Part shown: one piece after another, positions 20,268 through 53,061 of the stretch
Numbering within the stretch: position 1 is the first letter of the stretch
Layout: each line of letters starts with the position of its first letter
Assembly: GCA_903813345.2 (NCBI GenBank)
Contig: CAIIXF020000004.1
Span: forward strand, 3,429,525 to 3,493,524
Length of the DNA: 64,000 nt
DNA from: Owenia fusiformis
Taxonomy: Eukaryota > Annelida > Polychaeta > Sabellida > Oweniidae
Direction: 5' to 3'
Notes under the pieces: model-generated
What the model was told of the DNA's origin: nothing
Seen by the model: only the letters and a program-made list of their open reading frames with translations
Database searches by the model: none
Translations under genes and position numbers: made by a program

Positions 20268-20524
20268 AATGGCCGAAGATCAAACATGAACGTTAACGCT
20301 TCAAGGAATTTGATTGGTTCCTTAAATCATCTTCGGTCATCTTCGTAATATTAACATATTTTGTGGCGGGGCATTTTTGCTCTTCCAATGAAATTGATGT
20401 ATATCATGCAATAGTTTCTATTGGTTATCGCATGGGTATATAAAACATTCAAACATTTCACGGACATAGGTTTGAGCAGGACAGGAGAAGGGAAAACGTC
20501 TATAGTCAGCGATTCGAGAACAAG
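20268..20524 (+). promoter_or_regulatory. Promoter and non-coding exon 1 of peptide gene A
   Basis: A block from ATGGCCGAAGATC (about 20270) through TTCGTAATATTAACAT and ATTGGTTATCG to the TATA box TATATAAAA (20437-20445) is closely similar to 49990-50195 upstream of gene C. The exon that follows (about 20465-20524) ends GATTCGAGAACAAG with donor GTACGTGT. Its match to 31510-31570 and 50215-50276 extends into the intron. It has no ORF, so the coding start is in exon 2 after a first intron of about 8.2 kb. Confidence 0.6.
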
Positions 20525-20772
20525 GTACGTGTACTTTTTGAAAACTTGTTATTTGAGGTATCCGTGGTTTGCAATGTGATTTTAGTCGATGGCTGTATCA
20601 TTCAAAAAATGTAAAGAATGTGAATTTTAGACTAGTAAACGCTTCCGTATTTTGCTATGATAGAACAATTAAAATAAATCTCTCTATATTAGTGATCGAC
20701 TTCTTAATACCTAATGATTTACGCCTATGATATTTGATTTATTAAGAAATGCAATATTAAAGATTGTCATAT

Positions 20773-20846
20773 TCTATTCTCTCATCACTACCCGTCATTC
20801 AACATAACATCAACTTTCAGTTTCAAGGAATGAGAGCACTTGGCAC
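20773..20846 (+). repeat. 74-bp repeat, copy 1 (second copy 23382-23455)
   Basis: CTATTCTCTCATCACTACCC...GAATGAGAGCACTTGGCAC is almost identical at both places. In the second place it directly follows the 180-bp repeat that is also found at 28066. Probably a transposable-element fragment. Confidence 0.65.
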
Positions 20847-20923
20847 CCGTGTTTATTAGTAGCGTTATCCCGCAAGACGGGGTTGACAAGACACAAATGT
20901 TTGTTCGATTATCGAGTACTCAT

Positions 20924-22858
20924 CAGTGGCGTAGGAACAATGTACGCCAAAACGCCAGTGCGTAGTGTTGAAAAGTGAGAATAAAAAGGCTTATAATTTA
21001 CCTATGTTCTTTATTCATATTTTCTTATATTGTATTGTGCAAAAGTAATCTCGAGCACACTACCCTAAAGAAATGTTTGTGGATACCATATGATATGCTC
21101 GATTTTTTAATAGTACTCTTTTGCATGTTTTCTGTGCCTCTGTTATTTTTCTAACCTTGGCCACAGATAAATGACACTTTTTGAAAAATAAAATATTGAA
21201 AGTTAATACCTTGTTTCTACAATTCTAATACTGTAGAAAATGCAAAGTAATCATTATTGCTCTGTTTGGCAAATAATCAATTAACAGATTGAATTCTCTT
21301 ACCAACATGCTTTATTTCATGAAAATCGAGTCACTATTGACTGACTATCTTATGGATTTTAAAACTAAAATAAAATTTCGCCAAATATTCGTGATTCTCG
21401 TTCTCTTCACGAGAGAAAAACAGTTTTTTTTATCAAAAACTACTTGATGAATACCTTTGCAATTGTTTGCGCATGTTCCGTAATGCTTATGCAAACTGTG
21501 GCATCGTTTAATTATAATGATGAACCTCTTTAAATTAGATTTATTTTTTTTATTCTCCCCTACCCCCAATTTTTCAATTTCACTATATCGATTTATATTC
21601 CTTTGCTAGGCAAAATCATAGACAGAAATTATAGTTAAGTCAGCAATTATCTATTTTCTTACTAAATCACCGATTGTTATTGGTAGTACTTCTTGAAATA
21701 TGATTGTTAAAGACAAAAAATAACTTGAAAATGTTGATTATTCAATTACGCGTTCCATTGATTTCAGTTCCAGAAAAGCTATTACCTAGATTTTTATTTC
21801 ATTTGAAAGATAATAGATTATTGTTTTTATGCAATATAACATTTTTGGCACCCCCTAAGTCACGCTGACCTCGATTTGACCTTTGTGGTGGGAGGTTTAT
21901 TTGGTCTTGCGAACTAGTGTTATAAAAAAGGTTGCAGACATTAGGATTAATTGTATCATTGATCACGAATGCGTTTCTTTAAATCAATTGATCAAGCTAG
22001 ATTCTTTAATCTGTACGTGTCGTATTGCACGGTACTATACACGATGGAATCAGACAATAATATATATCTCAATTCAATTATTCGAAAATGATTAAAAATC
22101 TCTCATTGTTATTTGGAAATCGATCGTCTTTATCGTTCGAGACATAAGAAAAGTGAGGATGATTTGTGTCGAGATTTAAAAGATCGGCTTTCCATGGTGA
22201 TTTTAAGGATGTTCCCTGGACGAAGTTGAAAACGATGAACACCAACCCCTAATTTTTCTTTTCAAAATGTGAAGTACATAGCATAACTAAGTGTTTCTGT
22301 GAGTTTAAGAAAAAGTTAAATATTCAAAAGTGTGTTTTGGGGTGAAAACCTGATTTTTAACATGGGTTTCAATGAGAAAGTGCCACGCCCACTTTTGTCA
22401 AATATTGACACTTTAGAGGCCTCTTGCTCAGAAAAAAGCACACTAACATATGGTTTTTAAAGTTTTAATATTCTTTGTTGCCCGTGAGAATCCCAGAAAA
22501 CCATTTTTGAGAAAAAGTTAAATACTATTGAATATTTTCCTATCTGACCAGGGAACATCCTTAAATGAAAAAAATCATTCGAACATTTTAAGCACATTAA
22601 AAAGGGTATCAGGGATATTAAGCTTGCATATAAAATCGAAACGCCAACCTATACGTATTACCAATCGCCCATACAAATACATCGCTTAACTATTTCCGTT
22701 CACATTTAGGTTGTGAAAACATTGCAAGCTTAAAATCTCTATTGCCATAAAATGACAATAAAATAGGCATTTTGATAAAGAAGATTTGACACAATTGTTT
22801 CATATTTTTGGCGGGATTTTTTGGCGTAGTGTTGAATTTACACCTTCCTACGCCCCTG
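20924..22858. mobile_element. 1.9-kb non-autonomous TIR element with 5-bp target duplication
   Basis: Left end CAGTGGCGTAGGAACAATG and right end ACCTTCCTACGCCCCTG are imperfect inverted repeats, and both sides are flanked by CTCAT (20919-20923 and 22859-22863). Subterminal GGCGTAGTGTTGAA is present near both ends. There is no transposase frame inside. It sits in the first intron of peptide gene A and itself hosts the 364-bp element at 22202. Confidence 0.7.
22202..22565. mobile_element. Nested 364-bp MITE (TTTAAGGATGTTCCCTGG ends)
   Basis: TTTAAGGATGTTCCCTGG at the left and CCAGGGAACATCCTTAAA at the right are exact 18-bp inverted repeats. The interior has no ORF. It is inserted within the 1.9-kb TIR element. 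Confidence 0.75.
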
Positions 22859-23201
22859 CTCATTGTGCGTAAAATGTATGTATACAGATCAAATTAACGT
22901 TAATAATCAAGCCTATATAAAGTATAATGATATCTCAGTGAATCCTAGAACTATTAATACGTTTAAAGTGAATCTGATTGGCACCATTAAAACCTCTACT
23001 CTTATTATGAGAGACCGAGGACTCCTTAAAAGCTTTAAAAAGAAACCATCTTCATCTAAACTGAGGTTTCTTTGGAGATGAAAAGGTATGTCAATCAAAA
23101 CCACTATCTACATGTATATTATTACTGAACAATACTCTTACAAGAGTTGATACATAATGTTTGAAATTTACGAATACAACACTGTAATGTGAATATTAAA
23201 A

Positions 23202-23455
23202 CGAAGTGTATGTGTTGACTACACGGTGACAAAGCTCAGAATGTCTTTCTATACACTCTACCTTCACCACGAAAACATCCACTCACTCACATAACTCTAC
23301 ATTGAACTGAACTCATCGTTCAGCCAATAGAAAGCATTTATGTTCTAAAGTCGCTACGCTCCACCGAACATAAATAGGCATTCTATTCTCTCATCACTAC
23401 CCGTCATTCAACATAACATCAACTTTCAGTTTCAAGGAATGAGAGCACTTGGCAC
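23202..23455 (+). repeat. 180-bp dispersed repeat plus the 74-bp repeat
   Basis: CGAAGTGTATGTGTTGACTA...CGAACATAAATAGGCATT (23202-23382) recurs almost unchanged at 28066-28247. Here it is followed by the 74-bp repeat also found at 20773. Contains ATTGAACTGAACTCATCGTT. No gene. Confidence 0.7.
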
Positions 23456-24600: not shown

Positions 24601-26330
24601 CGCGCATTACAGTTTGCTAACCTTCAAACCACAGTGTGCTTACCTTCACATCATATTGTGATTAACTGCAACCATGGTGTGCATATCTACACATCAAGAT
24701 GTGCTTACCTACACATCACTGTGTACTTACCTGCACATCACGATGTGCTTACCTGCACATCACAGGGTGCTTACCTACACATAACAGTGTGCTTGCCTAC
24801 ACATTACAGTGTGCTTACCTACGCACCACTATTTACTTACCTGCACATCACAATGTGCTTACCTGTACATCACAGGGTGCTTACCTACACATTACAGTGT
24901 GCTTACCTACACATTACAATGTGCTTACCTACACATTACAGTGTGCTTACCTACACATTACAGTGTGCTTACCTGCACATCTCGCTGTGCTTACCTGCAC
25001 ATCACTGATACCCTGCACATCATGACGTGCTTACCTGCTCATCAAAGTATGCTACCCTGTACATCACGTTGTGTTACCCTGCATATCACGGTATGCTACC
25101 CTGCACATCGCTGTGTGCTACTCTGCACATTACAGTGTGCTTACCTGCACATCACAGTGTGTTACCCTGCACATCACGGTGTGCTAGCCTGCACGTCGCG
25201 GCGTGCTAATATTCACATCACACTGTGTTACCCTGCACATCACGGTATGCTAATCTGCACATCACAGTGTGCTACCCTTCACATCACGGTGTGCCAGCCT
25301 GCACGTCACGGCGTGCTAATATACACATCACACTGTGTTACCCTGCACATCACGGTGTGCTAACCTACACATCACGGTGTGCTAGCCTGCACGTCACGGC
25401 GTGCTCATATACACATCACACTGTGTTACCCTGCACATAACGTTGTGCTAACCTGCACATCACAGTGTGCTACCCTGCACATCACGGTGTGCTAGCCTTC
25501 ACGTCACAGCGTGCTTATATACATATCACACTGTACTAACCTGCACATCACAGTGTGCTACCCTGCACATCACGGTGTGCTAACCTGCATGTCACGGCGT
25601 GCTAACCTACACAATAAAATGTGCTACCAATCACATAACTTTGTGCTTACTTACATATCTCAGTTGGTTAACCTTCATATCACAGTGTGTTTACGTACAC
25701 ATCACAGTGGCTTACCTGTACGCGCCATGTTATGCATACATACACGTCCCGTTTTAATTTCTCTGTACATCACAGTGTGTTTACCTGCATATAATGGTCT
25801 GCTTACGTTCAACTATCAGTGTGCTAACCTGCACGTAATGGTATGCCTGCCTTTATATTACGGTGTGCTAACATTCACATCACGTTGCATGTCACAATAA
25901 TATGCTTACCTATGCATGCATCACAGTGTGGTCACCTGTAAATCAGTGTGTTCGATCTGCAAATCCCATTGTGCTAGCCTATATATTACAATCTGCTTTC
26001 ATGCACATCCCAGTGAGAGTACCTCTTCATCGCAATTTGATTGTATGAGCATTACAGTGCTTACATGTAGATCACAATGTGTTATCTTGTTCACCACGTT
26101 ATTCTTACCTGAATATCACTGTTTACCTCCACAGCAAAGTATCTTGATATGCTTACCTGCACCTAGTGATGTGCTTACCTGCATATCATGGCGTGCTTTC
26201 TTGCACGTCATTACCTGTCCATTCGAATATGCTAAGCTGTATAAGATGTTAATGAATGTTCTTACACAACCCAGTGTGCTTGTCTGTATAGCAATTGTGC
26301 TAAATGCGCAATACATGCATTTGCTAATAT
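24600..26330. repeat. 22-bp minisatellite array, about 1.7 kb
   Basis: Roughly 75 units of GTGTGCTTACCTACACATCA-type repeats. The core (24700-25020) is regular. From 25020 to 25620 a TGTGCTACCCTGCACATCAC variant with higher-order periodicity dominates. Beyond 25620 the units decay. All forward frames read as CLP/CAYLHIT-type repeats because the array is almost free of stops; these are not genes. It lies in intron 1 of gene A. Confidence 0.9.
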
Positions 26331-28065
26331 AAGCGTGCACATTATCCTCAATGTGCTGTATCAACAAACTAATATCTATGTCAAATAAACCATTGCTTTA
26401 ACTATTTAGCCTGTGCCGGATTATACTGTAACTTTAAAATGAATCTTAAATCTTAAAGCAAATACATGTTAACTTTTACCACCAAAACGTGTGAATTAAA
26501 CTAACTACTCTGACTTTACCCGGGTCTTGTTCCACAAAAGGATTGTTTGAAAACGCCTCTTTTTATGATTTTAAAAGCCTAAAGTCAAAATGTTAAGCTT
26601 TTGCAACGCTAAAGTTCTCATTGCCTTACGTTTTAAAATTAATGAACAACCTTCTTGATGAAAGTAGTAGTTCGAAATCAAGCTTCACTGTCCTGTCATC
26701 TAGATCTACAAAAATGCTTTACGATTGTCTACGCTGGAATAAACTCTAATTTCAACTCTATATTAACCTATAACATTTTTAAAAATGGGCACATCCAAAT
26801 GCCTTCGTATTAAGTTTTGATAATCTGTCAACCACAATTCTAGTTTTGAAGATATTTCAAGTAAGCTTATAAAACTACTTTATACGTGTAACTCTTTCTA
26901 CATTGAAATATTTTGCTTTCTTTTTCTGACAAGCCTCTGTGTTTACGAGTTAGTAAAACATGTCGAGTCTTTGATTAACGTTTTTAACTAACTCCTATAC
27001 GTTTAAACGTGTTTGATCTTTTCTGAAACCTGTATTTATTTGAAAATCTAATATGTCATTACTTGTTATCAAGTTGAAATTCTGAACATTGACCACTAAA
27101 TTTGATCTTTCTACAAATTATTTCTTTTTACTGCCTGCTTTATATACCCTTTATTTTTTTTTTAAACGAATCGGTTCATCTAAAATAGCTATTGTGAAAC
27201 AAACCTATCAACTTTTGAATATCAATCTCTCAGTTCTAATACCGAGGAAAAGAACATAAAATACGAAAAGAACTTGTAAAGGCCTCCCAATTGAGGAAAC
27301 ACTATAACATGTTGGTACAAGTACTTGTACGTACATAGATTGAAATCTACGAAGAAGACCTCTAAACAAATCTTGTAAGCACCGAACTACTGTCAGTAAT
27401 GTAAATCCCTGAAGAGATATCTAGCATTTCAAACAATAACATAAGAAAACATAATAATCTAATTAGCTACTTAACTTATTCGTGATTGCAGTAGTCGTTG
27501 ATCTCATTGCTCCCAAAATGACCTTGGTATGGCCATGGGCTTTCAACTAGAAAGCCCATGGTATGGCCCAGCTTCGCCGCATTGAAACCAGACATCGGTC
27601 ATCATTGGTAATCATGCTCACCCCGGCACTGCCCGATACTATGTTGTCGTAAAACAAGTTGCGACCTCTTGAGTCTAGTGGTACATACTGTAGGACATCC
27701 AGAACTTTCTGAAACGTAAAGGACCTCGAGAAAGCCTTTGTTACCAATTTTGTTATTTTATTTGAAGCTTCTTTTACGCTTTTTTATATATAGATGTTGA
27801 TTGTACTATCTGAGGTGATTGGAGTCATATTATTAACAGTTTATAACCAAAAGACATCTAACGTACCTGTTCAAACTAATCAATTTATTTTTTCGTAATA
27901 TAAAAGTTTTACCTTCTGTAATATTCTCTTCATATGACTGTGCTATTGTAAGTCAGCTGTTTCAACTATGTAGTAACGAGTAATATGGAGGTTTCTTCAA
28001 ATGTGTCTTGAACTTTCGAATTAAATTCGACAAAAGTTGTCTAATCTGTTGGTTTATTGAATAAA
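26331..28065. other. Intron 1 of gene A, non-coding; short hairpin at 27533-27561
   Basis: Nothing coding is supported. CCATGGGCTTTC-AACTA-GAAAGCCCATGG at 27533-27561 is a perfect 12-bp hairpin of unknown meaning. Confidence 0.4.
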
Positions 28066-28247
28066 CCGAAGTATATGTGTTGACTACACGGTGACAAAGC
28101 TCAGAATGTCTTTCTATACACTCTACCTTCACCACGAAAACATCCACTCACTCACATAACTCTACATTGAACTGAACTCATCGTTCAGCCATTAGAAAGC
28201 ATTTATGTTCTAAAGTCGCTACGCTCCACCGAACATAAATAGGCATT
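28066..28247 (+). repeat. Second copy of the 180-bp dispersed repeat
   Basis: Matches 23202-23382 except for a few bases (for example CAATAG versus CATTAG). It lies about 450 bp upstream of the coding exon of gene A. Confidence 0.7.
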
Positions 28248-28701
28248 ACTATCTATAGCCAGCAACTGTTTAATTGGTCAAAACCGGGTAACTTGATATA
28301 TCTTGTGGTATTCGATGACTATGTTTTTAAGATAAGATACACTGTGATAATATTGAATGCATGTGAACAACATGAATAACAATTATCAGCCATAATTAGT
28401 ATGAAATCAAATACATATGGAAAGAGTTTGGGTTGCTTGAGATTAACAGCTTGACAACATTTGAAATGACGTTAAAAGTTTAATTGTTCAATTTAAAACC
28501 TATATTTAATTGACATGAAGTGTTTTTGAAAAAAGCCTATCAAAATCATAGGATTATGAATGTTTCTTGTTGAAAATGTCTCCGGAATATATCTTGAAAA
28601 TTTCAGTTAGAATTGTCTTTCCATTGCAATACTAGAGTAATAAAAACACGATTGTATCATTGAACCTATCCGGAGTTTTCTGAATCTTTTTTATGTTACA
28701 G

Positions 28702-30149
28702 ATGCGATCAACTTCGATCATTTTCCTTGGCGTTTTAGTCATTTTGGTTTGCATCGTAATTACTGAAGGGAGGTCGCTTCTCATTGGATCTCCTCTTGAA
28801 GATAGACGTGCAGCAAAATTCTCGAAAAGGTTGCTGGTTTTTAAATGAGACATCATTTTTCAACGACTCAAAGCTATGTATTGTAGCGTTCTAGTTAACA
28901 ATTCCAGGTTTTGTGCCAATTTTGTTCTGGATTTTATTATCATCAGAGTTCAAAATTGACAGGTTTATAATAAATTATAATCTTCTCACGGTAATTTTCG
29001 CTCGTTAGAGCTTTTGTAGTTGTAAAAATACTGCCGACGAAGATAACACATTGTGATGTACAATCTACAAAATCCTAGAGGTACTGTAAATGGCTTTCCC
29101 GTACAAATATATATTTAAAGATATTAAAATATTCCCTTTACAGAAATGTTGTTAATTACAACCGGAAAGATGGTCCTGCCAGGCCGACTAGTGATGCTGT
29201 TATTCGACCACCAGCTATATATATTCCACATATACGGAAGTAAGTTGTTCCGGAGTATGAGACCCGCCATTATCGCAGTGAGGTTAGAAATGCCTTTCTG
29301 TGCAACCGATTATGGTTTTGAATATTCGTGCTGGAGTTTAATTTACTCAATGAATTCTGCAGTTATAAATTTCAATTTCTTTGTTCTGTTTCGTTTTGTA
29401 ACATTTTAATATTTTTGGGCTTCCACTTTTGACACGTGTGCTTACATATGAACGAGATGTGATGTTTCCAAACAGACTTTCTCAATATTCAGAACTCATT
29501 GATCAGAAACCTGTCTATACCAATATGTATGTCTGAGTGCAAAAGAAATGGCTAAACAATCAACACATTGGGGTATGTTACGGGAAATAAGGCTTATATT
29601 CACGGTTGCGCAGTATTTGAGATACGGGTGAACATGCCGTACTCACCTGCGGTATATGGCATATTCCACAAATAAGTGTTGTATATTCCACAGTGAATAT
29701 GCGATACATTGATTTTCGGTGAATACCCGATACTCACATGTGGAGTATGTCATACTCACTTGGGGAATATGCCATATACCGCAGGTGAGTATGACATATA
29801 CCGAAGGTGAAAACGTGATACAGAAAGCCTTGATTTGGTTGGTTGCAAGAATCGACTCTAAATGTAAAACCACGCTGGATTTGTTGCGCGGTAAAAACGA
29901 TACAAATATATGTCATATTCTGCAATGAATATGGCGTGTTCACCCTTAAGGCTAGGCACAAAAGCTTTCGGACCCCTCACTCCCTTCGGTCGTTCGGTGT
30001 ACAGAAAACGTTTGTGCCTAGCCCTGCGGTGTGTATTCGACAATATTACCCCTGCTCTTCGGTCTATATTTCTTAAGTAGACCATGCGTATTAAAGAAGC
30101 TATATGTTGTGTGTTTTTCAGACGAGCGACTGTTGTTGAAGAAGAGTAG
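28702..30149 (+). CDS. Peptide gene A: secreted proline-containing peptide precursor
   Basis: Coding exons 28702-28829, 29144-29239 and 30122-30149 join in phase (2,2) to 84 codons including TAG (83 residues). The acceptor TTACAG lies directly before the ATG. Exon 2 encodes a signal peptide (MRSTSIIFLGVLVILVCIV, then ITEG) and a short spacer ending in basic FSKR. Exon 3 (donor GTAAGT) encodes a basic site NRK followed by DGPARPTSD and RPPAIYIPHI. Exon 4 adds a further basic run (the IRKR junction) and the acidic tail ATVVEEE. Basic residues on both sides of a 22-residue Pro/Ile-rich core suggest a processed neuropeptide, pheromone or antimicrobial peptide; the function is unknown. Poly(A) signal AATAAA at 30200. 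Genes B and C have the same design. The last intron holds repeats. Confidence 0.66.
29626..29945. mobile_element. TACTCACCTGCGG-type palindromic element in the last intron of gene A
   Basis: GGGTGAACATGCC near the left end and GGCGTGTTCACCC at the right end are inverted repeats. The interior has many head-to-head words such as TATGGCATATTCC and GGAATATGCCATATACC. An orthologous copy lies at the matching place in gene B (about 41846-42165), so it inserted before the gene duplication. Confidence 0.6.
29950..30023. repeat. GGCTAGGCACAAA inverted-repeat element, copy 1
   Basis: GGCTAGGCACAAAAGC...CGTTTGTGCCTAGCC forms a hairpin around CTCCCTTCGGTCGTTCGG. It is followed by a conserved tail TATTCGACAATATTACCCCT and GGTCTATATTTCTTAA. 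Other copies: 31874-31947, 42343-42416, 50633-50680 (short) and 56721-56794 (opposite orientation). Confidence 0.75.
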
Positions 30150-31459: not shown

Positions 31460-31570
31460 TCAAGTCACGTGACAGACTATACCAACCTTGATATAACACG
31501 GAACATTTCTTTGACATATGTTGACGGAGCGGGATAGGAGACTTCTATAATTCAGTGACTCGAGATCAAG
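31460..31570 (+). promoter_or_regulatory. Promoter and non-coding exon 1 of peptide gene B
   Basis: TATA-like GATATAACACGGAACATTTC (from 31490) and the exon ending GTGACTCGAGATCAAG (31570) with donor GTACGTGC match gene C at 50188-50276. Upstream of the TATA the sequence no longer resembles genes A and C, and it has a CACGTG box at 31467. Control may therefore differ. The coding start is in exon 2 at 38614. Confidence 0.58.
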
Positions 31571-38613: not shown

Positions 38614-41600
38614 ATGGGGTCACCTTCGACCATTTTCTTTGGCGTTGTGGTGATTTTGGTTTGCATTGTAATTGCTGAAGTGAAATCGTTTCACCTTGAC
38701 ACTACTCTTGTTGAATATGCTCTTGCTGTCGAATCTCCTCTTGCAGCAGATTTTTCTAATAGGTTGCTAATTTTTAATGAGACTTTATTTTTAAAGAGTC
38801 AAACCTATTTATTGTATTGTTCTAGTTATTAGTCGTTTTTTATTCATTGTGATACATAATAAGACTTGGTTTGATATTTTTTATCAAATCGGCATTATTG
38901 ATTCTAAAATATGCAATTTTTGTTGTGATTTTATTATCATCAAAATGCAAAATTGACAGGAATGTAATTACAATCTTTTAACGATAATTTTCATAATTTA
39001 GTGCATTTGGGTCAATTTACGATAATTGTGATATTTCTAAAGATACAAAATTCGAGAAATATTCGAAATATTCACATGGCGATGATTTTTTTCTTGAATT
39101 GCAAAGGAAACGCATTATATTTCATAAATTCGTGAGCGGCATCATTTGAATTATATTGATATTTCGTAACTTGAGCAATTTGCAAAGCCATGATTTTATT
39201 AAGTCTAGTTTAATTTCAAACGCGATATTATTTATCACGTCTGTGAGTGTCAAACACATAATTAACATGTTTTTGCAGATTTAAGTATCGAATTATGATC
39301 ATATGTGAAACTAAGAGTGAAATATATTGTTTCCTAGTTTAGCAATGACTAGTACCTTGCTCTTATTTAAATATAAACAAAAAATACAAATATAACTAAC
39401 TGTTGATTGTACGTTCATATTTCACATCATTTTAGTCATTTTTCTCCTCTAACAAATGCTTAATAGAGTATTTCAAATTGACAATTAAGTATTTTCAATT
39501 AAGTATTTTCATGCCCAAAATAATAATCTTAAAATATTTTTCCAAAATACGATGTTTTAATAATTATGTGACTAAAACATATCAAACATCACGCTTTCAA
39601 GAGCTGGTCGCACATGCATTTTATTAACATGCTGAAAAATGCTGAAAAATATCAAATATCATGCTGAAACTTATCAACGCAATTAAAACATTAATTAAGT
39701 TCAGAAATCCGAGTTTATATTTATATACAAAATAAAATATTTGTTAATTGTCTAAAAGTCCATCATTTAAGCAATATTTGTTAAAAAAGATGAGCAATAT
39801 TCCAATTAAGCACCTTGTGGTGATGATTACTTGAAATCATGAAAACAAAAAATAACACATTGCTTGTCCATGAAATCAACGTATATGTCGCAGTCTCTAG
39901 TACAACAAAAGATTTTTAAAACATCAATTATCGTTAATTGGCCCATTTGTAGAAAATACTGTCGACGAAGATATAAGATATTGTGATGAACAATCTACAA
40001 AGTCCTAGAGGTAAATGGATATATCATTTAAATATGTACCTTTAGATATTAAAATATTCTCCTTTACAGAAATAGTGTTTATCACAAACGGCAAGATGGT
40101 CCCTCGCCCACTGTGCCTGGTATTCCAACACATTTTCCAATACATTTTCCGTAAGTACGAAAGTAGGTTGTTCCAACCGTCATCATTGCGCTAAGGTTAG
40201 AAATGCCTCTGTACTAATTATGACAATTAGTCCGGATGTGAAGTGCCATATTTTAAGTGAAGGTGGAAATGCTTATTATATGAATTTTTTTGCATTTTCT
40301 GTTAAAACATGATATCCATATTCAGAAACTGTCGGATGCCCAACGAGCATCTTTGAGGAATTTTTTTGGTGGCCATTTTGAATTTTCACACGTTTTATGT
40401 ATTTTAGCTAGCATATTAAAACAGAAAACTAGCATACACATAAACATATCTTGCTGTTTTTTCTATAATAGAGTTTTAATTTGATGTATACCAATATGTT
40501 AGGTTCCAAAAATGTTTCTTGACAAAAATAAAAAAAATTCAAGATGGCTGCCAACCTTACAATTCATGAAATGTCTCATTCTGTGATAATATCAAATTGA
40601 TATTAGTGTTTCCTACAAAATTATCAATAAATAATACTAAATACATCTGATTATGATCTCTTTCTCACATATAAAATATCTGAAATGAGTAAAAAGTAAT
40701 CTACATAATAATAATAATGATGTTCCACAAGGGTCATTTCTTGGTGCTATATATATCTTGAATTTATGAATTATCTTCTTTTACTTAGATTTCATCAAGG
40801 ATTTCCTCAATAAATCCTCGTCAGTTTCTTCCAATTCCTGTTCAGTTACTGTCTAAAAGTCCATCATTTAAGCAATATTTGTTAAAAAAAGATGAGCAAT
40901 ATTCCAAACAAGTACCTTGTGGTGATAATCACTTGAAATCTTGAATAAAAATAACACATTGCATGTCGATGAAATCAACGTATATGTCGCAGTCTCTAGT
41001 ACAACAAAAGATTTTTAAAATATCAATTATCGTTGATTGTAGAAAATACTGCCGACGAAGATATAATTTATTGTGATGAACAATCTACAAAGTCCTGGGA
41101 GTAAATGGCTATTACATTCAAATATGTACTTAAATATATTAAAAAAAATTATTTTACAGAAATAGTGTTTATCGCAAACGGCAAGATGGTCCCTCGCCAT
41201 CTGTGCCTGGTATCCCGACACTAAATATAGATGTTCCGATGTACGAAACTAGGGTGTCCACACAGCCCAAGCCATCATTGCACTAAGGTTAGAAATGCCT
41301 CTTCACTAATTACGACTTTGGTTTGGCGTGTTCTTATTGGGGGCTAATTTACTTTATGACTACTGGATACAGGGTGGGGCAAAAACGCCACTTTTTTAAA
41401 ATGCTATAACTTTTTTAATGTTTGATATTAAATCATAATTTGCATACCAAATAAAACTTGAGGTTGTTATCTAGCCATGTATCATGAATTTTTACTTTTA
41501 GGTTGGAAAATAAAAAAGTTGTAGTGTCTTGAAAAAAGTGGCGTTTTTTTGGCCTACCCTGTAGTTACTCTTACATGTTCCTCATTTTTTTGTTCTTCTT

Positions 41601-43745
41601 CGTTTTGTAACATTTTATTTTTTTTGGCTTCGTCTTCTGACACTTGCGCATACATTTGAACAATGTGAGACATGTTAAAGTATCAAAACAGACTCTCAAT
41701 ATTCAGAACTCGACATTGATCAGAAACCTTACTATACCAATAAGAAAGTACGAATTGCAAAAGGAAAGGCTGAACAATGGAAATTTGTTTGGTATGTTAC
41801 GCGAAATATGGCTTATATGTATGGTTGCGCAGTATTTGTGATACGGGTGAATTAGCCATACTCACCTTCGGTATATGGCATATTCCACAGGTGAGTTTGA
41901 TATATTCCGCAGTGAATTTGCGATACATTGATTTCAGTGAATATCCTATACTCACCTGTGAAATATGTCATACTCACTTGGGGAATATGCCATATATCGC
42001 AGGTGAGTATGACATTTACTGCAGGTGAAAACGTGATACAGAAGGCCTTGATTTTGTTGGTTGCAAGAATCGGCTCTAAATGTAAAACTACGCTGGATTT
42101 GTTGCGCAGTAAACACGATACAAACATATGTCATATTTTGCAATGAATATGGCATGTTCACCTGCGGTAAAAGACATACTGACTAACCAATGAGAAAGCG
42201 ATGCAGAAGTACGCATTTACATCGATTTAACAAATGGGCAAAAGTAAACTATTATATCAATAAATGAATCAACAGTTCAGTGTACTGAATATATCAACTA
42301 ATACAAAGGAATAACATACGCAAGTGGTACCTAGCCCCTTAAGGCTAGGCACAAACGCTTTCGAACCCCTCACTCCATTCGGTCGTTCGGAGTACAGAAA
42401 ACGTTTGAGCCTAGCCCTACAGTGTGTATTGGACGATATTACCCCTGCTCTTCGGTCTATATTTCTTAAGTAGACCATGTGTATTAAAGAAGCTTGCACA
42501 TGCCATTTGAAATGTAACACAAGTCAGTCAAAAAATTAAAATATGATACTTAGGTGGTTCAAAAAGTTTTGCAGTTGATGCCATAACTTCAAGGAAAAAA
42601 GAACTTTTACAATGAAACTTGGTACACATATGTGTTATACATTTACACATTATATGTTAAAATTTGGGACCTCAATTTTTATTGGTTCTTGAGTTATGGT
42701 TGCTATGGTAACCAGAGTGGTGGGTACCATGTTCAACCCGAAATTACGTTTTTCCAAATGGTTTTCTTGCTTGAATAAACTCTTTGTAAAGTGGCAATTA
42801 GCAGGTGTAAGTGTCTTTTGGAAAAGATAAAAGTTCTTATAGAGCAGGACAGACATATTTCATTAGAGGAAATAAGTGATTTACTGGATATATCTAAGGG
42901 GTCCTGCCATACAATTGTCACAAAGATCTTGAATAAGCGGTATGTTGCAGCAAAGTGGGTTCCAAAGTTCCTCACAGTGGAGCAAAAGGAAGCGCGTCTT
43001 GCAGCATCTATGCAATTTCTGGATACGTTTTGGCATAATTTCCAAATGCTCCCTGAACCAGTTCATAAGTCTCTTGCAAAGTCTTGCCATTTTGAGCCAT
43101 GCGCTGTATCAGATTTCTATGCTTCCATTTCATCAATTTGGCTGGTGTGGAAACATCTGCCATTTTGAAAAATTTGGAAAAAAATTCAAAATTTCCTCAC
43201 TTTTCCATCTCAATTTTCCAACTGGGTTTTGGACAGTATATATCACAAAGGAACTTATCGTGTCACTTGTCTATTGTGATGTCATAGAGAAAATCAGAAA
43301 AATTGAAGAATTTGAAGAAAAATAGCCACCCAAAGACACTTACACTTGCTAATTGCCACTTACGAAGAGTTTATTCAAGCAAGAAAACTATTTGGAAAAA
43401 CGTAATTTCGGGTTGAACATGGTACCCACCACTCTGGTTACCATAGCAACCATATCTCAAGAACCAATCAGAATTGAGGTCCCAAATTTTACCATATAAT
43501 GTATAAATATATAACATATATGTGTACCAAGTTTCATTGCAAAAGTCCTATTTTCCTAGAAGTTATGGCATCAACTGCAAAACTTTTTGAACCACCTAAG
43601 TAACTGCTTCTTTATATCGTTTCACTACTGTACAAAATCGTTTCACTACTGCACATGACATAAAATAACACCATCAATTAGTCATGCAATGTGTTGTATA
43701 TTTTTCAGAAGAGCAGGTGTTGTTGAAGAAGAGTTGACTGCATAG
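38614..43745 (+). CDS. Peptide gene B: secreted proline-rich peptide precursor with duplicated peptide exon
   Basis: Coding exons 38614-38762, 40070-40150, 41160-41240 (duplicate) and 43709-43745. Exon 2 encodes a signal peptide (MGSPSTIFFGVVVILVCIV, then IAEVKS) and an acidic spacer ending ADFSNR. The 81-nt exon 3 encodes NSVYHKR, a classical dibasic site, then QDGPSPTVPGIP and THFPIHF. Its duplicate encodes NSVYRKR, then QDGPSPSVPGIP. The last exon gives RAGVVEEELTA and TAG. All exons start and end in phase 2, so using either exon 3 copy gives 88 residues and using both gives 115 residues with two peptide modules. Q after KR could form pyroglutamate. Without splicing at GTAAGT 40151 the frame stops at TAA 40151-40153 minus one base register. 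Poly(A) signal AATAAA at 43784. The function is unknown. Confidence 0.66.
39745..41300 (+). repeat. 450-bp tandem duplication carrying the peptide exon of gene B
   Basis: GTCTAAAAGTCCATCATTTA at about 39749 recurs at 40852. Both copies run through AACGTATATGTCGCAGTCTC and TTTACAGAAATAGTGTTTAT to the end of the peptide exon. Spacing is about 1.1 kb. Coding differences include a His/Arg change before the KR site and a diverged 3' half. Confidence 0.82.
41370..41561. mobile_element. Mariner-like MITE (192 bp, TA target)
   Basis: CAGGGTGGGGCAAAAACGCC at the left and GGCGTTTTTTTGGCCTACCCTG at the right are inverted ends bracketed by TA dinucleotides (41368 and 41562). There is no ORF. The size and TA duplication fit a Tc1/mariner-type non-autonomous element. 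Confidence 0.7.
41846..42165. mobile_element. TACTCACCTGCGG-type element, copy in gene B
   Basis: Same structure as 29626-29945 (GGGTGAATTAGCC at the left, GGCATGTTCACCTGCGG at the right) and at the orthologous position. Copy 3 of the GGCTAGGCACAAA repeat follows at 42343-42416. Confidence 0.6.
42549..43600. mobile_element. Internally deleted mariner element with long TIRs (1052 bp)
   Basis: Begins CTTAGGTGGTTCAAAAAG and ends CTTTTTGAACCACCTAAG, flanked by TA on both sides (42547-42548 and 43601-43602). The inverted repeats extend imperfectly for about 260 bp on each side. Between them lies a fragment of mariner transposase. It is inserted in the last intron of peptide gene B; gene A lacks it at the same place. 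Confidence 0.85.
42791..43168 (+). pseudogene. Mariner transposase remnant, helix-turn-helix region
   Basis: The frame reads a mariner-like paired HTH: HISLEEISDLLDISKGSCHT, then KRYVAAKWVPKFLT and EQKEARLAASMQFLD, the standard N-terminal half of mariner transposases. The frame then loses similarity and stops. The DDD catalytic core is missing because the element is deleted to about 1 kb and the right TIR follows. The start lies inside the left TIR. It cannot encode an active enzyme. Confidence 0.8.
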
Positions 43746-43968
43746 TGCGTAACCAGATAATATTCTAAATGATATTTATTTGAAATAAAACAATACAATT
43801 TCAAACGTATTGATATCATGTTTATGTTTAATTGCTCTTTAATACACACAAATATACAAAACATGAGTGGGTAACACTTTAAAACTATGTATTGCCTACA
43901 AAAGCTTTACAATAAAGGTGTGTTGTCATACCTGTTAAAGTACAGAGTATATGTTGTTTTATGACAGT

Positions 43969-46255
43969 GTAACGGCCCAGTATTGAATACTGGGGCCGTT
44001 CCTTAGTTATTTTTAAGTTATTTCTAAAGTTTGGTGTATATACTTACTTTTTAGGTTGGGTAAAACTCTGGCACAGCTTGTGATTTTAGTCAAATTAACT
44101 TATTTTTGGTCATTTTCAAATTTTTGTATTTTTTGTTTTTCCGCCATGTTTGTTTTGGTTCAAAATCTCTAACGCGAGATTTCGTTTGTTCTGTTATGTT
44201 CGGCTACTTACTCATATTTAATCTACATCACACAAGCTCACATACTTTGTCAATATTCACTTTAGTTTTCTTAATATCTTTCATCCTTATAGGGGTGATT
44301 GTGATCCCTTATTTCTCATTGTTGCCAGTTTTGACTTCTATGTCAAGGGGTCTCTTCTCGCGAGATGATTGTGAAACGTGTTGTTCTGATCAAGAAGACG
44401 GATTACTTTCACTCGTGCCCGTATTCAGTTATTACCGTGTTAGGATAACTTCGCAACGTATAACCATGTCCGAGTTGTCGTCTGATGTTGCTGCATCTGG
44501 ACAGGCTATATAAGCTCATTTTATTGTACTTAGCTAACTTTTAATGCATTGAAGTAAATGGCCATTTTGAGTCTATTTCCAAATTTTTTCGTCAATTCTT
44601 CCTTGTTTCTGTAGTTTTGAGCCTTTGAGGGTGGGTGAGACCCACTATGACAGACCCATACGATCACCCAGTTAAGACAGGAACGTTTTGATACCGCTTT
44701 TAGTGACTTTAGTATGAAGAGCTAGGTGAATTTATAGCCTGATCTAGCATTGACCAGCCTTTTACAGCTACATCAGCTCTTTCTAGTTTAGCTCCAAGTG
44801 ACGTCATTTCTAGCTATTATCAGCTAAGCTCTCCTGCTAGCCTTTTACAGCCAATATATTGCAAAACTAGTGCCAGGGTATTCAGATACATAGCATATGC
44901 AGTAGTGACAACTTACCATTGAGGTGTATATGCATTGATATATATGTTTATCAGTTATTCCTGAAATAGAGTAAGTAATTTGTTGATTGGTTGTTTTTTT
45001 ATTATTAGTGAGTGTTGAGAGAACTCACTTATTCCCCCTCCCATTTATATTTGACTTCTATTAGCACAAGTTATACACATAACTTCTAGCACAGTCCCAT
45101 ATATTAACTACAGGTGTATCAATATTGACCCCCTCCCCCTCCTCCAGTCAACTAGGTACCTTGCTAGATTTGGCCGGAACCCCCGATACGCTAGATGTGG
45201 CTAGAATACCTGATATGCTAGAAGTGGCTTGAGTACCCAATAAAATTGGTGATACAGTTGCATGCACATAGGTACCTTGCTAGAAGTGGCTAGAATATCC
45301 ATCACCTTAATTATTTAGGACTTTTACACGCACAAAGGTACCTTGCTAGAAGTGGCTAGAATACCCATCTCCTTGATTGCTACTATTACACGCATATAGG
45401 TACCTTGCTAGAAGTAGCTAGAATACCCATCACCTTAATTATGACTTTTACACGCAAAAAGGTACCTTGCTAGAAGTGGCTAGAATACTCATCACCTTAA
45501 TTGAGACTATTACACGCACATAGGTACCTAGCTAGAAGTAGCTAGAATACCCATCACATTAGTTGAGACTATTACACGCACATAGGTACCTAGCTAGAAG
45601 TGGCTAGAATACCTGATATGCTAGAAGTGGCTGGAGTACCCAATAAAATTGGTGATACAATTGCATGCACATAGGTACCTTGCTAGAAGTGGCTAGAATA
45701 CCCATCACCTTAATTAGGACTCTTACATGTCAATAGGTACCTTGCTAGAAGTGGCTAGACTACCCATATCCTTAGTTGAGACTATTACACGCACATAGGT
45801 ACCTTGCTAGAAGTGCCTAGAATACCCATCACCTTAATTGAGACTATTACACGCACATATGCACCTTGCTAGAAGTGGCTAGAACACCGATACCTTAAGT
45901 GATACAGTTGCATGCACATATGTACCTTGCTAGAAGTGGCTAGACTACCCATATCCTTAGTTGAGACTATTACACGCACATAGGTACCTTGCTAGAAGTG
46001 CCTAGAATACCCATCACCTTAATTGAGACTATTACACGCACATATGCACCTTGCTAGAAGTGGCTAGAACACCGATACCTTAAGTGATACAGTTGCATGC
46101 ACATAGGTACCTTGCTAGAAGTGGCTAGATTACTCGATACCTTAATTCAGGCAATTGCATACACATAAGCACCTTGCTAGAAGTGGCTAACACCTCTCGT
46201 AAAACAATATTAGTAACACACATTTATTACACTAATTGAGTATATAAACCATAAT
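43969..46255. mobile_element. Insertion of uncertain class between genes B and C
   Basis: Where gene A is followed directly by the sequence at 30381, gene B is followed by TGTAACGGCCCAGTATTGAA, with an immediate hairpin (ACGGCCCAGTATT / AATACTGGGGCCGT), about 1.1 kb of unique DNA and a minisatellite, before the Harbinger-type insert. The TG start hints at an LTR or a Helitron-like end. The right boundary is not seen. A frame at 44106-44513 (hydrophobic, ending MSELSSDVAASGQAI) is without recognised homology. Confidence 0.4.
45160..46195. repeat. 62-bp minisatellite (GGTACCTTGCTAGAAGTGGC)
   Basis: About sixteen units of TAGGTACCTTGCTAGAAGTG, then GCTAGAATACCCATCACCTT, then AATTGAGACTATTACACGCA. 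A higher-order repeat of about 185 bp is visible where a GATACAGTTGCATGCACAT variant recurs (45780-46110). No ORF. Confidence 0.9.
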
Positions 46256-46589
46256 AGAGAGATTTCGCACATACGTGAACGTCAATGTAAAATACCTTCC
46301 CTTTAATTCTTGGCGTGGCAAGCCAGTATAAGAGGGGGTAGTTTATTTTGAAACCAAATTGGTGCATTAGGGTCTAACTGAAACATGAAGGGTAGTTGTA
46401 GGGATTTCAAGCTAACAAACCCATAAAATGTGAACATAAGAAGTAAGTTCTGTATAAAATAATAATGTATATTTATTGGTATCTGAAGATGCATGAAGTA
46501 ACAAATAGTAGATGGTGTTTGCGTGCTAAGGCGAATGGTGTTAAAGGGGAATAAGGCTAAGGGTTGAAGAAGTTGAAGGATAATTGAAG

Positions 46590-46770
46590 AATCTGAAGAC
46601 TTTAAAGACTGAATGAGGGCGTTGAAGACTTTGACGACTAAATGAGGGCGTTGAAGACTTTGAAGACTAAATGAAGGAGTTGAAGACTATGAAGACTAAA
46701 TGAAGGAGTTGAAGACTATGATGACTAAATGTAGGAGTTGAAGACTTTGAAGACTAAATGTAGCAAATGA
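46590..46770. repeat. Tandem repeat of about 30 bp (GTTGAAGACTTTGAAGACTA)
   Basis: Roughly six copies of TTGAAGACTTTGAAGACTAA followed by ATGAGGGCG or ATGAAGGAG, decaying towards 46770. Inside the non-autonomous Harbinger element. Confidence 0.8.
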
Positions 46771-48122
46771 AGACAATTTGAGAAATTATGGGTAAAATCG
46801 AAACTAATTGCTTAAAAAGTAAAGTAAATGGCTGTGACTGAATTAATGAACACTCGTAACAACTTAACACACATGATAAGACTCGAAGGCAATTTATCAA
46901 TTTTCCAGACAATCTATCCATACCGTGACCTTGGCTATGAAAGTTAGAAAAATTGTCAGGAAAACCCCAGCAGCACTGCCCGGAACTGAGTAAAAACCTG
47001 ATATGAAACGTTGAATACCAAACTCACAAAAGTAATGTTTAAACAACCAATGAACAGCCAGCAATGCTGAGCAGTTGCCACATAAATAGTTTTCAATAGA
47101 CACACTTGAATGCATATACACATAAATACATGTTGCTGTTCGATTTAAGCAAAGAGAGTAAGATTAACAATAATGTGTCATTCACAGTTAAATACTACAC
47201 TTAAATAGTACATAGAGCTTGATGAACATAAACAACAGTTATTGAAATACAATGGAGATTTGTTACATCAACTTATAACGTATACTTATACTTATAGGTA
47301 AACGTACAAGGTGTTTCATAATGTGGGCTTTTCGTCAGGAAAGATCTTCTCGGACTGTAATAAATAAAGGTCATTTGTTGAGCTCCTGAATGGATCGTTT
47401 CCAGTAATTGCTAGAAACTAATGGTTTGATTGGTTTTCAAATTGATGGTTAAAGTATTTGAATGGATACTGTTCCTACTCAGCCAATTAATTTTAAAAAA
47501 TGCTTGCGGTCAATTGTTCCACACACATGTAGGTAAAGCTTTATACGGAGATCCAACTGTATACGTTTATCATCTCGTATATATACCGTTTTGTAAGTTC
47601 ATTGAACTTATACTGATCATGAAAACTTTGAAATAATCAACTTGTTTATGTAATGACTCACTCTAAAGGATTATGAGTCACTTTCAAGGATCGTGTTTAT
47701 ACTACACTACAACTACTAGGACACGGAAGCAAGCATTTAATTATAACTTTGCATAATCTACACGTGCAGATGACAGTGCATTCACAGTCTCTAGTTGATG
47801 GAGCTTTTCTTTATCGGGAATAGTTATGTTCCATTAAAGCTGGACTAGACTACGCCCCGGAACGCAATCTTGGGTTGTTTCGGGATTGAACTTTATCATT
47901 TTGAGCTTAATGAAAGATTATAGAATGATGAACAAATGGGGCAAATATTGTGTAGAAATACTTACGATAAATGTGTCATTTCAAAGATTTTTCATTGAAT
48001 TTGCTTCGATCGGAGCCGGCGATATGATTTTGGAAAGGTTTCTAAATGAAGAACGTGACGTCACTTCCGAATCATAGCATTCAAAATAAGTAGCGTTTAA
48101 TTACTTCCACCATTCATAATAA

Positions 48123-48190: not shown

Positions 48191-48446
48191 TTTTTATTTT
48201 TTTAACTAAATGATTGTTCTTTGATATTACGCAGAAAAAAACAATTTTTAATTTCATGAACTTTATATTAGAGTTTGAAAATGTAAAAACAATATATGTC
48301 AACATATTGCGTTTTGGAGCGATGTGCAGGTTTAAGTACAATTTAAAATTGATTTTAGTAAATATAATAGTTCGACATGACCCTTTAAACTATACGTATA
48401 CGTATAAGTTGTACTTTCACTTATGTGCGAAATCTCTCTAATTTCT

Positions 48447-49984: not shown

Positions 49985-50276
49985 AACCGAAGATGGCCGA
50001 AGATGACCGAAGATGGCCGAAGATCTCACATTAACCCTTCAAAGAATTTAATTGGTTTCTTGAAGCATTTTCAGCCATCTTCGTAATATTAACTTTAATA
50101 TTAATTATCTTTTGTTGCGTTGCACCTTTGTTCTCCGAGTGAAATTGATGTGTATCAGGCACCAGTTGCTATTGGTTATCGTGTAGGTATATAACACAGA
50201 ACATTTCCTTGACATATGTAGAAGGAGCAGGAGAGGAAAAGGTATAACTTCTATAATCCAGTGACTCGAGATCAAG
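49985..50276 (+). promoter_or_regulatory. Promoter and non-coding exon 1 of peptide gene C
   Basis: Three GAAGATGGCCGAAGATGACC-type words, then CATCTTCGTAATATTAAC, ATTGGTTATCG and TATA box TATATAA (50188-50194), matching gene A upstream. The exon (about 50215-50276) ends GTGACTCGAGATCAAG with donor GTACGTAC. Intron 1 would run to 52909. Confidence 0.6.
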
Positions 50277-50714
50277 GTACGTACATGTACGTTTTGAAAT
50301 CTTATTTGGGGTAAACGTGGTTTGCATTCTGATTTCAGTCGATACCTGCATTCAAAGAATGTAAAGAATGTGTATTTTTGAACTAGTACAAGCTTTCGTA
50401 TTTTGCTACGATAAAATAATAATTGGAACATGACTGTATTCACGCCTTCTATAAAATGTGAACAAAGTCAATATTTCACCCGGGTTATATTCGCGAACAA
50501 TACCCCTCGAGTAATGTGTTGCGTCATAATGGTGGCCCGTAGTAATGGCGGACCATAATGATGAAGAATTTTTATGTTAGAATCGTAATATAGACGTCAG
50601 AGCAGGTGTAATATCGTCGAATTCACCCCTCAGGACTAGGCACGAAAGCTTTCGAACAGAAACTGTTTTCTGCCTAGCCCTGCGGGGTCTTTGGAAAATC
50701 AATGATTGTGAGTC

Positions 50715-51393
50715 TCACACTACACCGTTTTTCTTCAATCTTGTTCCATTAAAACCTTCACAGAAATACCTTTCAGTCGAGACATTGCCTTTGTATGTAA
50801 AGTCCCTCGTTTTAGCGGCGTTTTGGTCCCCAGATGTGAGAAGTTGCAAATCCTCAGAGATTTCAACCACAATCCTTGATATCTCGTCAGTTCTTCTATC
50901 ACTCTCCCCCATATTCTGCGCAAGGACTCCCATTATAACCCTCCATCGCTGCATCAACATATTTATTACATGAAACGCAGCAATTTTGAAAAGTCCTACG
51001 CAACTGTTCGAAATTGACCAAAACGCCACGTTGTCTTCCAAAACGGCCCGCAGAGTCTAGACTACAAAAGTGTATACAAAGATCCAACGGGGCGTTTTGA
51101 AAGAGAACGGGGCGTTTTGATCAATTTCGAACAGATGCGTAGGACTTTTGGAAATTGGTGCGTTTAATGTAATAAATATGTTGATGCAGAGATGGAGGGT
51201 TGTAATGGGAGTCCTTGTGCAAATTATAGGGGAGAATAATAAAAAAAAAACTGGCGATATATCCAGGCTTTTGGTTGAAATCTCTGACGATTTGCATCTT
51301 CACACATCTGGGGACCAAAACGCCGCTAAAACGAGTGACTCAGTACACAAAAGCAATGTCTCGACTGAAAGGTATTACTGTGTATTACTATGA
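50715..51393. repeat. Inverted pair of related ORF-bearing segments
   Basis: A minus-strand frame (51041-50715) and a plus-strand frame (51148-51393) encode clearly related proteins: both share VINMLMQRWRV, then TSGDQNAAKT and then NVSTERY. They face each other head to head across about 100 bp containing AACGGGGCGTTTTG repeats. The proteins are similar but the DNA has diverged. I do not recognise the family. It is inside intron 1 of gene C and absent from gene B, so it is an insertion, perhaps transposon-derived. Confidence 0.5.
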
Positions 51394-52909
51394 TATTCCC
51401 TTGATTAACATGAAAAATAAATGCAATTAGTTAATGGTATAGGTGAAAGTGATGTCGACGTCACCACATCGGGCACATTACTCAAGGTTAATTCAAAGAT
51501 AGCATGGACAGTTTTTTCGGAATTCAATTAAAAATACCGTACTGTAAAATCATTTTTCTTTATGTCCTACCGGGATTGCTCAAACAAATTCACATTTTGT
51601 ATTTATTTAATTTCAATAGATGATAAACTACTCAGTATTAGAAATAACCCTCATATTGTCAATGTTGCATTGTATGCTATGTGACATCCCGCATTCTGTA
51701 TTCTCGACGAACATATATCTTTGCACAAAAGAGTAACATATTGTCTTAAACATTCTTAATATAGCGGTATGGAGCCAGGAATTTCTGTATGTCAAAATTA
51801 AAATCTTTGACACTAGGGTGACATGATAATATTTATCTATGTTTTCAGCATTACTGTGAGAGTATTTATGACATCTTGGTGTATTCAATAGTGTGTTTTA
51901 ATTTTTTTAATAAAGGTAATAAATAGTGTGTTTTAAATTTTTTATTAATGTTTAAAACTAAAAATGATTAAAGGCAACATTCCTCTTCACCCTATAGGCC
52001 TATTCAGCAATACATTTGTGTATACTCTTAAATTAATTAATGATGATTCAGTAAAGCATATTGAGTGCAGATGTGACTGAAATATGGAGGGCAATTTTGG
52101 AATTTTCATTTTTTTATTTTTTGATCGTTCGTGGCAACCCTGGTGTCAATTTTTCTCTCTAACTCCACGAGAAAACAAAGGCCTTTCAAATTGGATGATG
52201 TCATTTTGCTAGGAAATGATTTATCCTTAACATGATGTACTATAATCATCTTAAACGTGGGTATTGTTTTTTTGGCCCACCATGTATATTTTCTTAAAAT
52301 CCCTAAAGTCACTTTATTCCATACATAATGTGGATGTCCAAATTACCCTGTCTCTTTTTGGAGATTATATGTTGAGACGGTTAATGATATATATTGGGAG
52401 GTCAGTTGAGCACATTTCTTATAAATAACAACTTCAACCACATAAATTTCATGTACGATCTTGGCAGCAGATTAAAAATGAATAACCACAAGGAGCACAC
52501 GCGTCTCGAACTCGAAACCTCGTGACTACGGCAACTTCTAGATATATATTGGATTAGTTCGAATTCGAAAAGAGGTTGAGGATTGGGAGTCGAGTTTATC
52601 TTATAATGTTATGATGAAAACTTGTCCCGCCAAAATCTTGATCCTGGCTGCGGCCCTTAGATTGCACACATTTTCCTCTAATGGAGCGTATTTGTATCAA
52701 TGCAATATTTATATTTTTGCGACCTCGCCAGAATTTAACGATTTTACGTTTTCGAATTACTTTTTTAATCATTTTTTCCTTTCAAAATAGGCCTTACATA
52801 AAAAACGACACTTTACAACAAATAATCATTAACGTGTTGAGGATTTTCAAGATATGAATCTTTTTTAAGTCTGCCCTTAAATGTTTTAATTTCTTTTTTT
52901 ATGTTACAG
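51394..52909. other. Intron 1 of gene C, 3' part, homologous to gene B intron 1
   Basis: Blocks at 51440-51985, 52050-52230 and 52620-52770 match gene B intron 1 (32580-33080, 35120-35330, 36045-36190) in the same order. Gene B carries the TIR pair and other DNA between them. No gene. Confidence 0.55.
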
Positions 52910-53061
52910 ATGCGGTCACCTTCGATCATTTTCCTTTGCGTTGTAGTCATTTTGGTTTGCATCGTACTTGCTGAAGTGACATCGCTTTCCCTTCGACCTG
53001 CTCTTCGTGTTGAAACTGCTCTTGCTGCTGAATCTCCACTTGCAGCAGATTTCTCTAATAG
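52910..53061 (+). CDS. Peptide gene C: signal-peptide exon (partial gene)
   Basis: Exon 2 of the third paralogue begins with ATG directly after ATGTTACAG and ends AATAG before donor GTTGCTGG in phase 2, exactly as in gene B. It encodes a signal peptide (MRSPSIIFLCVVVILVCIV, then LAEVTS) and a spacer with ETALAAESPLAADFSN. The following intron matches gene B to about 53460 and resumes at about 62695, interrupted by roughly 9.2 kb containing the Harbinger element. The peptide exon and acidic-tail exon are not in the window, because the sequence switches to the palindrome at 62820. Whether the gene still works is unknown. Confidence 0.6.

Follow-up and report, generated by a model that had tools for sequence, protein, structure and literature searches.

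What do three similar blocks of DNA, standing one behind the other in the genome of the annelid Owenia fusiformis, encode? The blocks, here called genes A, B and C, lie in a window of 64,000 nucleotides (nt), the whole stretch analysed, on contig CAIIXF020000004.1 (assembly GCA_903813345.2, positions 3,429,525 to 3,493,524 of the forward strand). An initial annotation, made from the letters alone, had taken them for a tandem family of secreted peptide precursors, each with a TATA promoter, a non-coding first exon, a signal-peptide exon, a short peptide exon and a last exon with an acidic tail. The reading favoured here, with a probability of roughly 0.4, is that gene A is an orphan secreted-prepropeptide gene with a ligand-type product, and that B and C are tandem copies with lost or changed parts. 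Judged from its predicted layout, gene A is probably a genuine secreted-precursor gene; the ligand role of its product, taken alone, is tentative and stands at rather less than an even chance.

Three copies of an exon set

Comparison of the window with itself finds the three homologous blocks on the same strand, arranged head-to-tail. The exon 1 region of A (20263-20669) is 75.8% identical to that of C (50007-50420), and the homology of B in this region begins at 31491 towards C and at 31502 towards A. The exon 2 blocks begin at 28685 (A), 38584 (B) and 52879 (C), the exon 3 block of A (29020) pairs with two blocks in B (39947 and 41037, here B3a and B3b), and the exon 4 blocks of A (30099) and B (43686) are 90% identical. 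By this comparison the exon sets are real and homologous; their predicted coordinates are collected in Table 1. Intron 1 measures 8177 bp in A, 7043 bp in B and 2633 bp in C.

As the initial annotation proposed, all three copies have the non-coding exon 1, with its donor AAG/GTACGT, and an exon 2 whose first letters, right at the acceptor, are ATG. The leader that comes next is strongly hydrophobic (hydropathy averages 3.5 to 3.9 over 15-residue windows), and an AATAAA lies downstream of the last exon in every copy. The common TATA promoter holds for A and C, which are homologous over about 175 nt upstream of their TATATA boxes, but not for B, where homology starts only around exon 1, the upstream block has no counterpart and just GATATAAC is found. 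Likewise, the short peptide exon is present in A (96 nt) and twice in B (81 nt each), with the frame that begins its core at DGP open in all three, but neither blastn nor tblastn detects an exon 3 for C in the 302 kb searched. The acidic-tail exon stands in A and B (VVEEE, then AATAAA), whereas in C four codons are followed by TAA at the place of VVEEE, with the AATAAA kept at L003:7512. The frame is thus broken in the last exon of C and open in A and B, and C is not confirmed as a full paralogue. Because C has no detected exon 3 and a stopped tail, and B is without the promoter block, only gene A, one of the three copies, has every part (promoter, leader exon, peptide exon, tail and AATAAA).

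Genome-wide (498 Mb in 525 contigs, only the best candidates scored), exon 2 DNA, at an expectation value (E) of up to 10, and exon 3 DNA, at E up to 1, each give three matches among the best candidates, all within the cluster; the exon 2 protein of C as a query recovers two of the three exon 2 places, those of B and C. Within the 302 kb, exons 1, 2 and 3 match solely the A, B and C places, so that no further copy is found nearby, and exon 4 matches A, B and C together with three weak extra places (E 2e-4 to 6e-4) that are left uncounted.

Several repeats lie in or near the copies. Intron 1 of gene A holds two copies, 98% identical, of a 190-bp sequence (23197-23386 and 28062-28252) that ends in the TATA-like ATAAATAGG; an adjoining 76-bp piece is repeated exactly (20771-20846 and 23380-23455). 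These repeats are possibly a mobile element or a spare promoter. The promoter blocks of A and C (20263-20360 and 49985-50090) carry, by eye, direct and inverted copies of the CCGAAGATG motif, in tandem at 49986-50024. A minisatellite with a 22-bp unit fills 24605-25718 in intron 1 of A, and further arrays stand at 45163-46189 (about 62 bp) and 46559-46774 (29 bp). Intron 3 of gene B holds an open reading frame (ORF) that resembles, by eye, a fragment of a mariner-type transposase (42779-43168), beside which lies a 275-bp inverted repeat pair (42547-42821 and 43329-43602).

Frame, splice sites and the predicted precursor

Exon 2 leaves two nt over in all three copies and the peptide exons measure 96, 81 and 81 nt; the introns of the coding sequence are therefore phase 2 in A and B, consistent with the earlier prediction. 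Between copies, the lengths of gaps are divisible by three in 7 of 7 cases inside exons 2 to 4, against 5 of 25 in the surrounding DNA (one-sided Fisher P = 0.0002), a count in which gaps are taken pairwise, so that three of the seven stem from two overlapping exon 2 events, and in which one of the two last-exon gaps belongs to C, whose frame is stopped. The edges of exon 3 in this count are taken from B3a, and hence a 1-nt gap close to where B3b ends is scored as non-coding. Another 1-nt gap, in B, lies directly beyond the exon 2 donor, as would suit a non-coding stretch at that place. The TAG that ends the tail of A has no counterpart in B, and beyond it A still encodes LTA and a stop, like B. 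The phase-2 frames, the ATG with its leader and the gap lengths make exons 2 to 4 look coding.

Splice sites were scored with a rough, self-built consensus matrix, donors being given as percentiles among the GTs of the window. The exon 1 donors of A, B and C lie at the 99.6th percentile, the exon 3 donors at 99.0 (A), 91.8 (B3a) and 90.6 (B3b), and the acceptors of exons 2, 3 and 4 between 91 and 99.8, with the exception of B3b. Of the exon joins proposed in the initial annotation, that from exon 2 to exon 3 depends on a weak donor, AG/GTTGCT, whereas the other sites of A score well. This donor is the sole phase-2 GT common to all three frames beyond the signal peptide.

When joined, the frame of A runs from the leader through a spacer to FSKR, and then through NVVNYNRK, DGPARPTSDAVIRPPAIYIPHI, RKR and ATVVEEE. 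That of B runs through its spacer to FSNR, and then through NSVYHKR (3a) or NSVYRKR (3b), QDGPSPTVPGIPTHFPIHFP or QDGPSPSVPGIPTLNIDVPI, a single R and AGVVEEELTA; 3a and 3b could serve singly or together, with the frame unchanged. These features support, for A and, promoter apart, for B, a secreted precursor that has basic sites, a proline-rich core and a short acidic tail. Basic sites precede the core in both genes (SKR and NRK in A, HKR or RKR in B), whereas the second site that had been proposed, after the core, is RKR in A and one Arg in B. The cores contain no cysteine, 23% (A), 30% (B3a) and 25% (B3b) Pro, and 0 to 9% Arg plus Lys. The net charge at pH 7 of the core that starts at DGP is -0.2 (A), -1.1 (B3a) and -2.2 (B3b); with the stretch before DGP attached, the charge of these long forms is +1.8, +1.0 and +0.8, respectively. 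The predicted isoelectric point (pI) is 4.1 to 6.8 for the cores and 8.6 to 9.7 for the long forms. The suggestion that the acidic tail neutralises the core is at odds with cores that are already neutral to acidic, and is conceivable only for the long forms.

In all three blocks, about 60 nt directly before the peptide exon are conserved (29023-29080, 39950-40010 and 41040-41100). Between A and B3a, 6 of 58 positions differ in this stretch, compared with 23 of 61 in the core. As a known RNA it finds no gathering-level Rfam match anywhere in the window, and the two matches under the threshold in 39900-41320 are Hatchet (22.7 bits against 51, E 0.11) and sR1 (14 against 45, E 0.96). An alternative exon was rejected by eye: the acceptor AG of B is not retained at the aligned place in A, and the exon 2 frame soon meets a stop.

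Table 1. Coordinates of the predicted exons of genes A, B and C and of the neighbouring PAN-like genes
Feature	Position	Strand	Details
Gene A promoter block and non-coding exon 1	20263..20524	+	upstream block common with C; TATATA at 20437; donor AAG/GTACGT at 20525
Gene A exon 2	28702..28829	+	opens with ATG at acceptor; leader hydrophobic; FSKR at end of spacer; donor AG/GTTGCT weak
Gene A exon 3 (96 nt)	29144..29239	+	proline-rich core from DGP on, between NVVNYNRK and a basic end; donor GTAAGT
Gene A last coding exon, to TAG	30122..30149	+	RATVVEEE; AATAAA at 30200
Gene B exon 1 region	31491..31570	+	donor kept; A/C promoter block absent; GATATAAC where TATA box expected
Gene B exon 2	38614..38762	+	leader and spacer, ending FSNR
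Gene B exon 3a (81 nt)	40070..40150	+	NSVYHKR, then QDGPSPTVPGIPTHFPIHFP
Gene B exon 3b (81 nt)	41160..41240	+	copy of 3a, with NSVYRKR ahead of QDGPSPSVPGIPTLNIDVP; acceptor weak, donor GTACGA
Gene B last coding exon, to TAG	43709..43745	+	RAGVVEEELTA; AATAAA at 43784
Gene C promoter block and non-coding exon 1	50007..50276	+	upstream block common with A; TATATA at 50188; donor at 50277
Gene C exon 2	52910..53061	+	leader and spacer, ending FSNR
Gene C last exon	L003:7432 (window-equivalent 71432; outside the window, 18 kb downstream)		acidic tail stopped
Upstream PAN-like gene	15405-15716, 16951-17256, 18225-18536		
Downstream PAN-like genes (two)	L004:5528, L004:7287, L005:580, L005:3921, L005:5446, L005:6030		

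A proposed secreted ligand and its rivals

For gene A to yield a ligand, exon 2 would be spliced to exons 3 and 4 via the weak donor, the signal peptide would be removed, and a proprotein convertase would cut at FSKR/FSNR and/or at NRK, HKR or RKR, and again before the short acidic tail. After trimming of the basic residues, the released product would be a cysteine-free, proline-rich and near-neutral peptide of 20 to 30 residues, which may act as a secreted ligand of the neuropeptide or pheromone type. In B, an exposed N-terminal Gln could turn into pyroglutamate.

A number of observations weigh against this reading, beginning with the incomplete state of B and C. The exon 2 donor scores at percentile 75.5 in A and 60.4 in B and C, and the acceptor of B3b at 40.2. 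The ratio of nonsynonymous to synonymous substitution rates (dN/dS) in exon 2 is about 0.9 for A-B and B-C and 2.3 for A-C, and in exon 3 it is 2.5 for A-B3a, 1.8 for A-B3b and 0.7 for B3a-B3b, all from small numbers; dN is not clearly below dS, and codon substitutions give coding no support. Many neuropeptide precursors contain the peptide in repeated copies and have, ahead of the basic site, a Gly that allows amidation. Here, no core has a Gly ahead of the basic site that follows it, and there is one peptide per precursor, with no repeated copies. Relatives are likewise missing from the databases searched, which may hold few annelid proteins. In a large protein set, precursor B (2 word-sharing candidates) and a four-row alignment (217 candidates) find nothing at E up to 1, Pfam gives no family at E up to 1 for A, B and exon 2 of C, and NCBIfam, whose models cover bacteria and archaea, gives nothing at E up to 1 for the four rows. 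Similarity to a neuropeptide family is found neither via Pfam (E up to 1) nor in the protein set. The single match in PDB (E 1.3) is judged to be chance, and QDGPSP and six other peptide strings have no match in the literature. The initial annotation, which did not recognise the sequence, is borne out on this point; the genome comparison covers Owenia fusiformis only, and a restriction to Owenia is not shown by it.

The same secreted gene could instead make a host-defence or epithelial secretion peptide, with a diversifying core and with the longer, weakly cationic form in use. Tandem duplication and loss are known from other defence families, as the excerpted text of PMC12294457 describes, the long forms carry the modest positive charge given above, and the core differs more than the flank between A and B3a (22/58 versus 35/172, P = 0.013). 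The contrast is weaker between A and B3b (23/57 versus 47/178, P = 0.066), however, and between B3a and B3b the core (12/60) is no more divergent than the adjoining intron (14/59); the divergence of the core may reflect diversification or weak constraint, and the compared flank includes the unusually conserved stretch. The short cores, moreover, are neutral to acidic and poor in Arg and Lys, and show no similarity above shuffled sequences to myticalin A5, lumbricin-1 or Cg-Prp. Because the charge of the core is near or below zero, a ligand is favoured over a cationic antimicrobial peptide, and a defence role, though a near rival, is unlikely.

Two further explanations deny the precursor its peptide exon or its function. 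Transcripts could read through the weak donor to a stop, so that the coding sequence ends with exon 2 (RLLVFK and stop in A and C); exons 3 and 4 would then be unjoined, or joined in some transcripts only. The weakness of the donor, the high similarity of the three copies over about 20 nt past it, the identical short run-on in A and C, the undetected exon 3 of C and an AATAAA at 28969 in A are consistent with this idea. B, on the other hand, has the 1-nt gap there and a run-on with a different end, no AATAAA follows exon 2 of C up to 54400, the first in B comes at 39731, and the idea does not account for exons 3 and 4, which are open, match in phase and are followed by AATAAA. Such read-through seems quite improbable. 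Alternatively, the family may be decayed or may never have worked, the layout being the remnant of a disused gene and the open frames inherited or due to chance. The undetected exon 3 and stopped tail of C, the absent promoter block of B, the lack of codon constraint and the empty searches of the protein set, Pfam, NCBIfam and PDB all point this way, whereas the gap lengths preserve the frame, and A retains its promoter, frame, AATAAA and splice signals, except for the exon 2 donor. Decay is rated improbable, and the orphan secreted-prepropeptide gene remains the favoured reading of A.

A bolder extension of that reading is a long shot. The symmetrical phase-2 peptide exon would serve as a cassette, doubled in B (3a/3b), lost from C and rewritten from one copy to the next, with the signal exon and the 3' end kept, in a fast-diversifying system for recognition, mating or defence, known from Owenia alone, that sits within tandem secreted PAN-domain-like genes. 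If expressed, gene A adds a secreted peptide without a recognised relative in an animal studied as a model for annelids that branched early, and the set of A, B and C shows gain, loss and rewriting of a peptide exon between copies. If it is not expressed, the locus is a caution, a plausible precursor layout in three copies of which just one is complete.

Neighbours of the cluster and known systems

Three tandem secreted genes, each with a pair of PAN-like domains, flank the cluster, one on its upstream and two on its downstream side. When the downstream PAN-like domain ORFs were scanned in Pfam, one of four lay above the PAN_1 cut-off and two of four just under it; the remaining downstream ORF and the ORF of the first upstream domain have no Pfam PAN match, and their assignment comes from their likeness to the other ORFs. 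Descent of A to C from these neighbours was considered and rejected, as the precursors of A to C are unmatched to the neighbour exons at E 0.01. Elsewhere (60270-61998 and 62815-64000), an ORF resembling a HARBI1-type transposase by eye lies on the minus strand at 60270-61346. It is overlapped by a 1186-bp inverted duplication that is very recent or an effect of assembly because its identity is 99.9%. Just upstream of the window, ORFs like a Polinton-type packaging ATPase and DNA polymerase are seen by eye at L006:188-871 and L006:6908-7945.

The initial annotation had likened the layout to that of the mussel myticalins and looked to molluscs for relatives; the host is, however, the annelid Owenia fusiformis. 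Myticalins and modiocalins are linear cationic antimicrobial peptides of Mytilus and Modiolus mussels and, in the excerpts of PMC5577615 and PMC12294457, they resemble the present genes in the non-coding exon 1, the ATG at the start of exon 2, the tripartite precursor with an acidic C-terminal part, the tandem copies, the variable peptide and the pseudogenes. In the part of PMC5577615 that describes the gene, a myticalin has three exons, with the mature peptide inside exon 2, followed by a phase-1 intron, and an intron 1 of 303 or 340 bp. The peptide of A and B is predicted on an exon 3 of its own, with phase-2 introns and four exons in the model, and intron 1 of A, B and C spans 2.6 to 8.2 kb. 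The mussel peptides are strongly cationic (pI above 11, more than 10% Arg) and, past a Lys-Arg site, are followed by an anionic C-terminal extension that is 35 to 75 residues long (same excerpts), whereas the tail here has 7 (A) or 10 (B) residues and the core is neutral to acidic. Myticalin A5, its sequence taken from an excerpt of PMC11678341, has a charge of +8.8 and a pI of 11.7 by the same script, and shuffled sequences match its similarity score in 625 of 1000 cases for A and 136 of 1000 for B3a. The proposed likeness therefore fails on charge, intron phase, exon plan and tail length, which together with the annelid host rule out membership of A and B among the myticalins.

Closer to the host, lumbricins are annelid and proline-rich peptides without a large positive charge, like the cores described here, but are about 60 residues long, as given in excerpts of PMC6780910 and PMC11678341. 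Kinship with lumbricin-1 was rejected, with shuffles scoring as high in 870 of 1000 cases (A) and 885 of 1000 (B3a), as was kinship with Cg-Prp (213 and 902 of 1000, respectively). Annelid BRICHOS antimicrobial precursors also pair a highly variable peptide region with a precursor region that is conserved (excerpt of PMC6780910), but Pfam finds no BRICHOS domain in the present genes, and their cores are cysteine-free. Precursors of neuropeptides and pheromones, as a general kind, share with A and B the predicted signal, candidate basic cleavage sites around a short peptide and the near-neutral, proline-rich core; they differ in that A and B have one peptide per precursor, no Gly amidation site and, in B, a single Arg after the core. 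As predicted precursors, A, B and C fit no known family, but are of a known general kind, the secreted peptide precursor.

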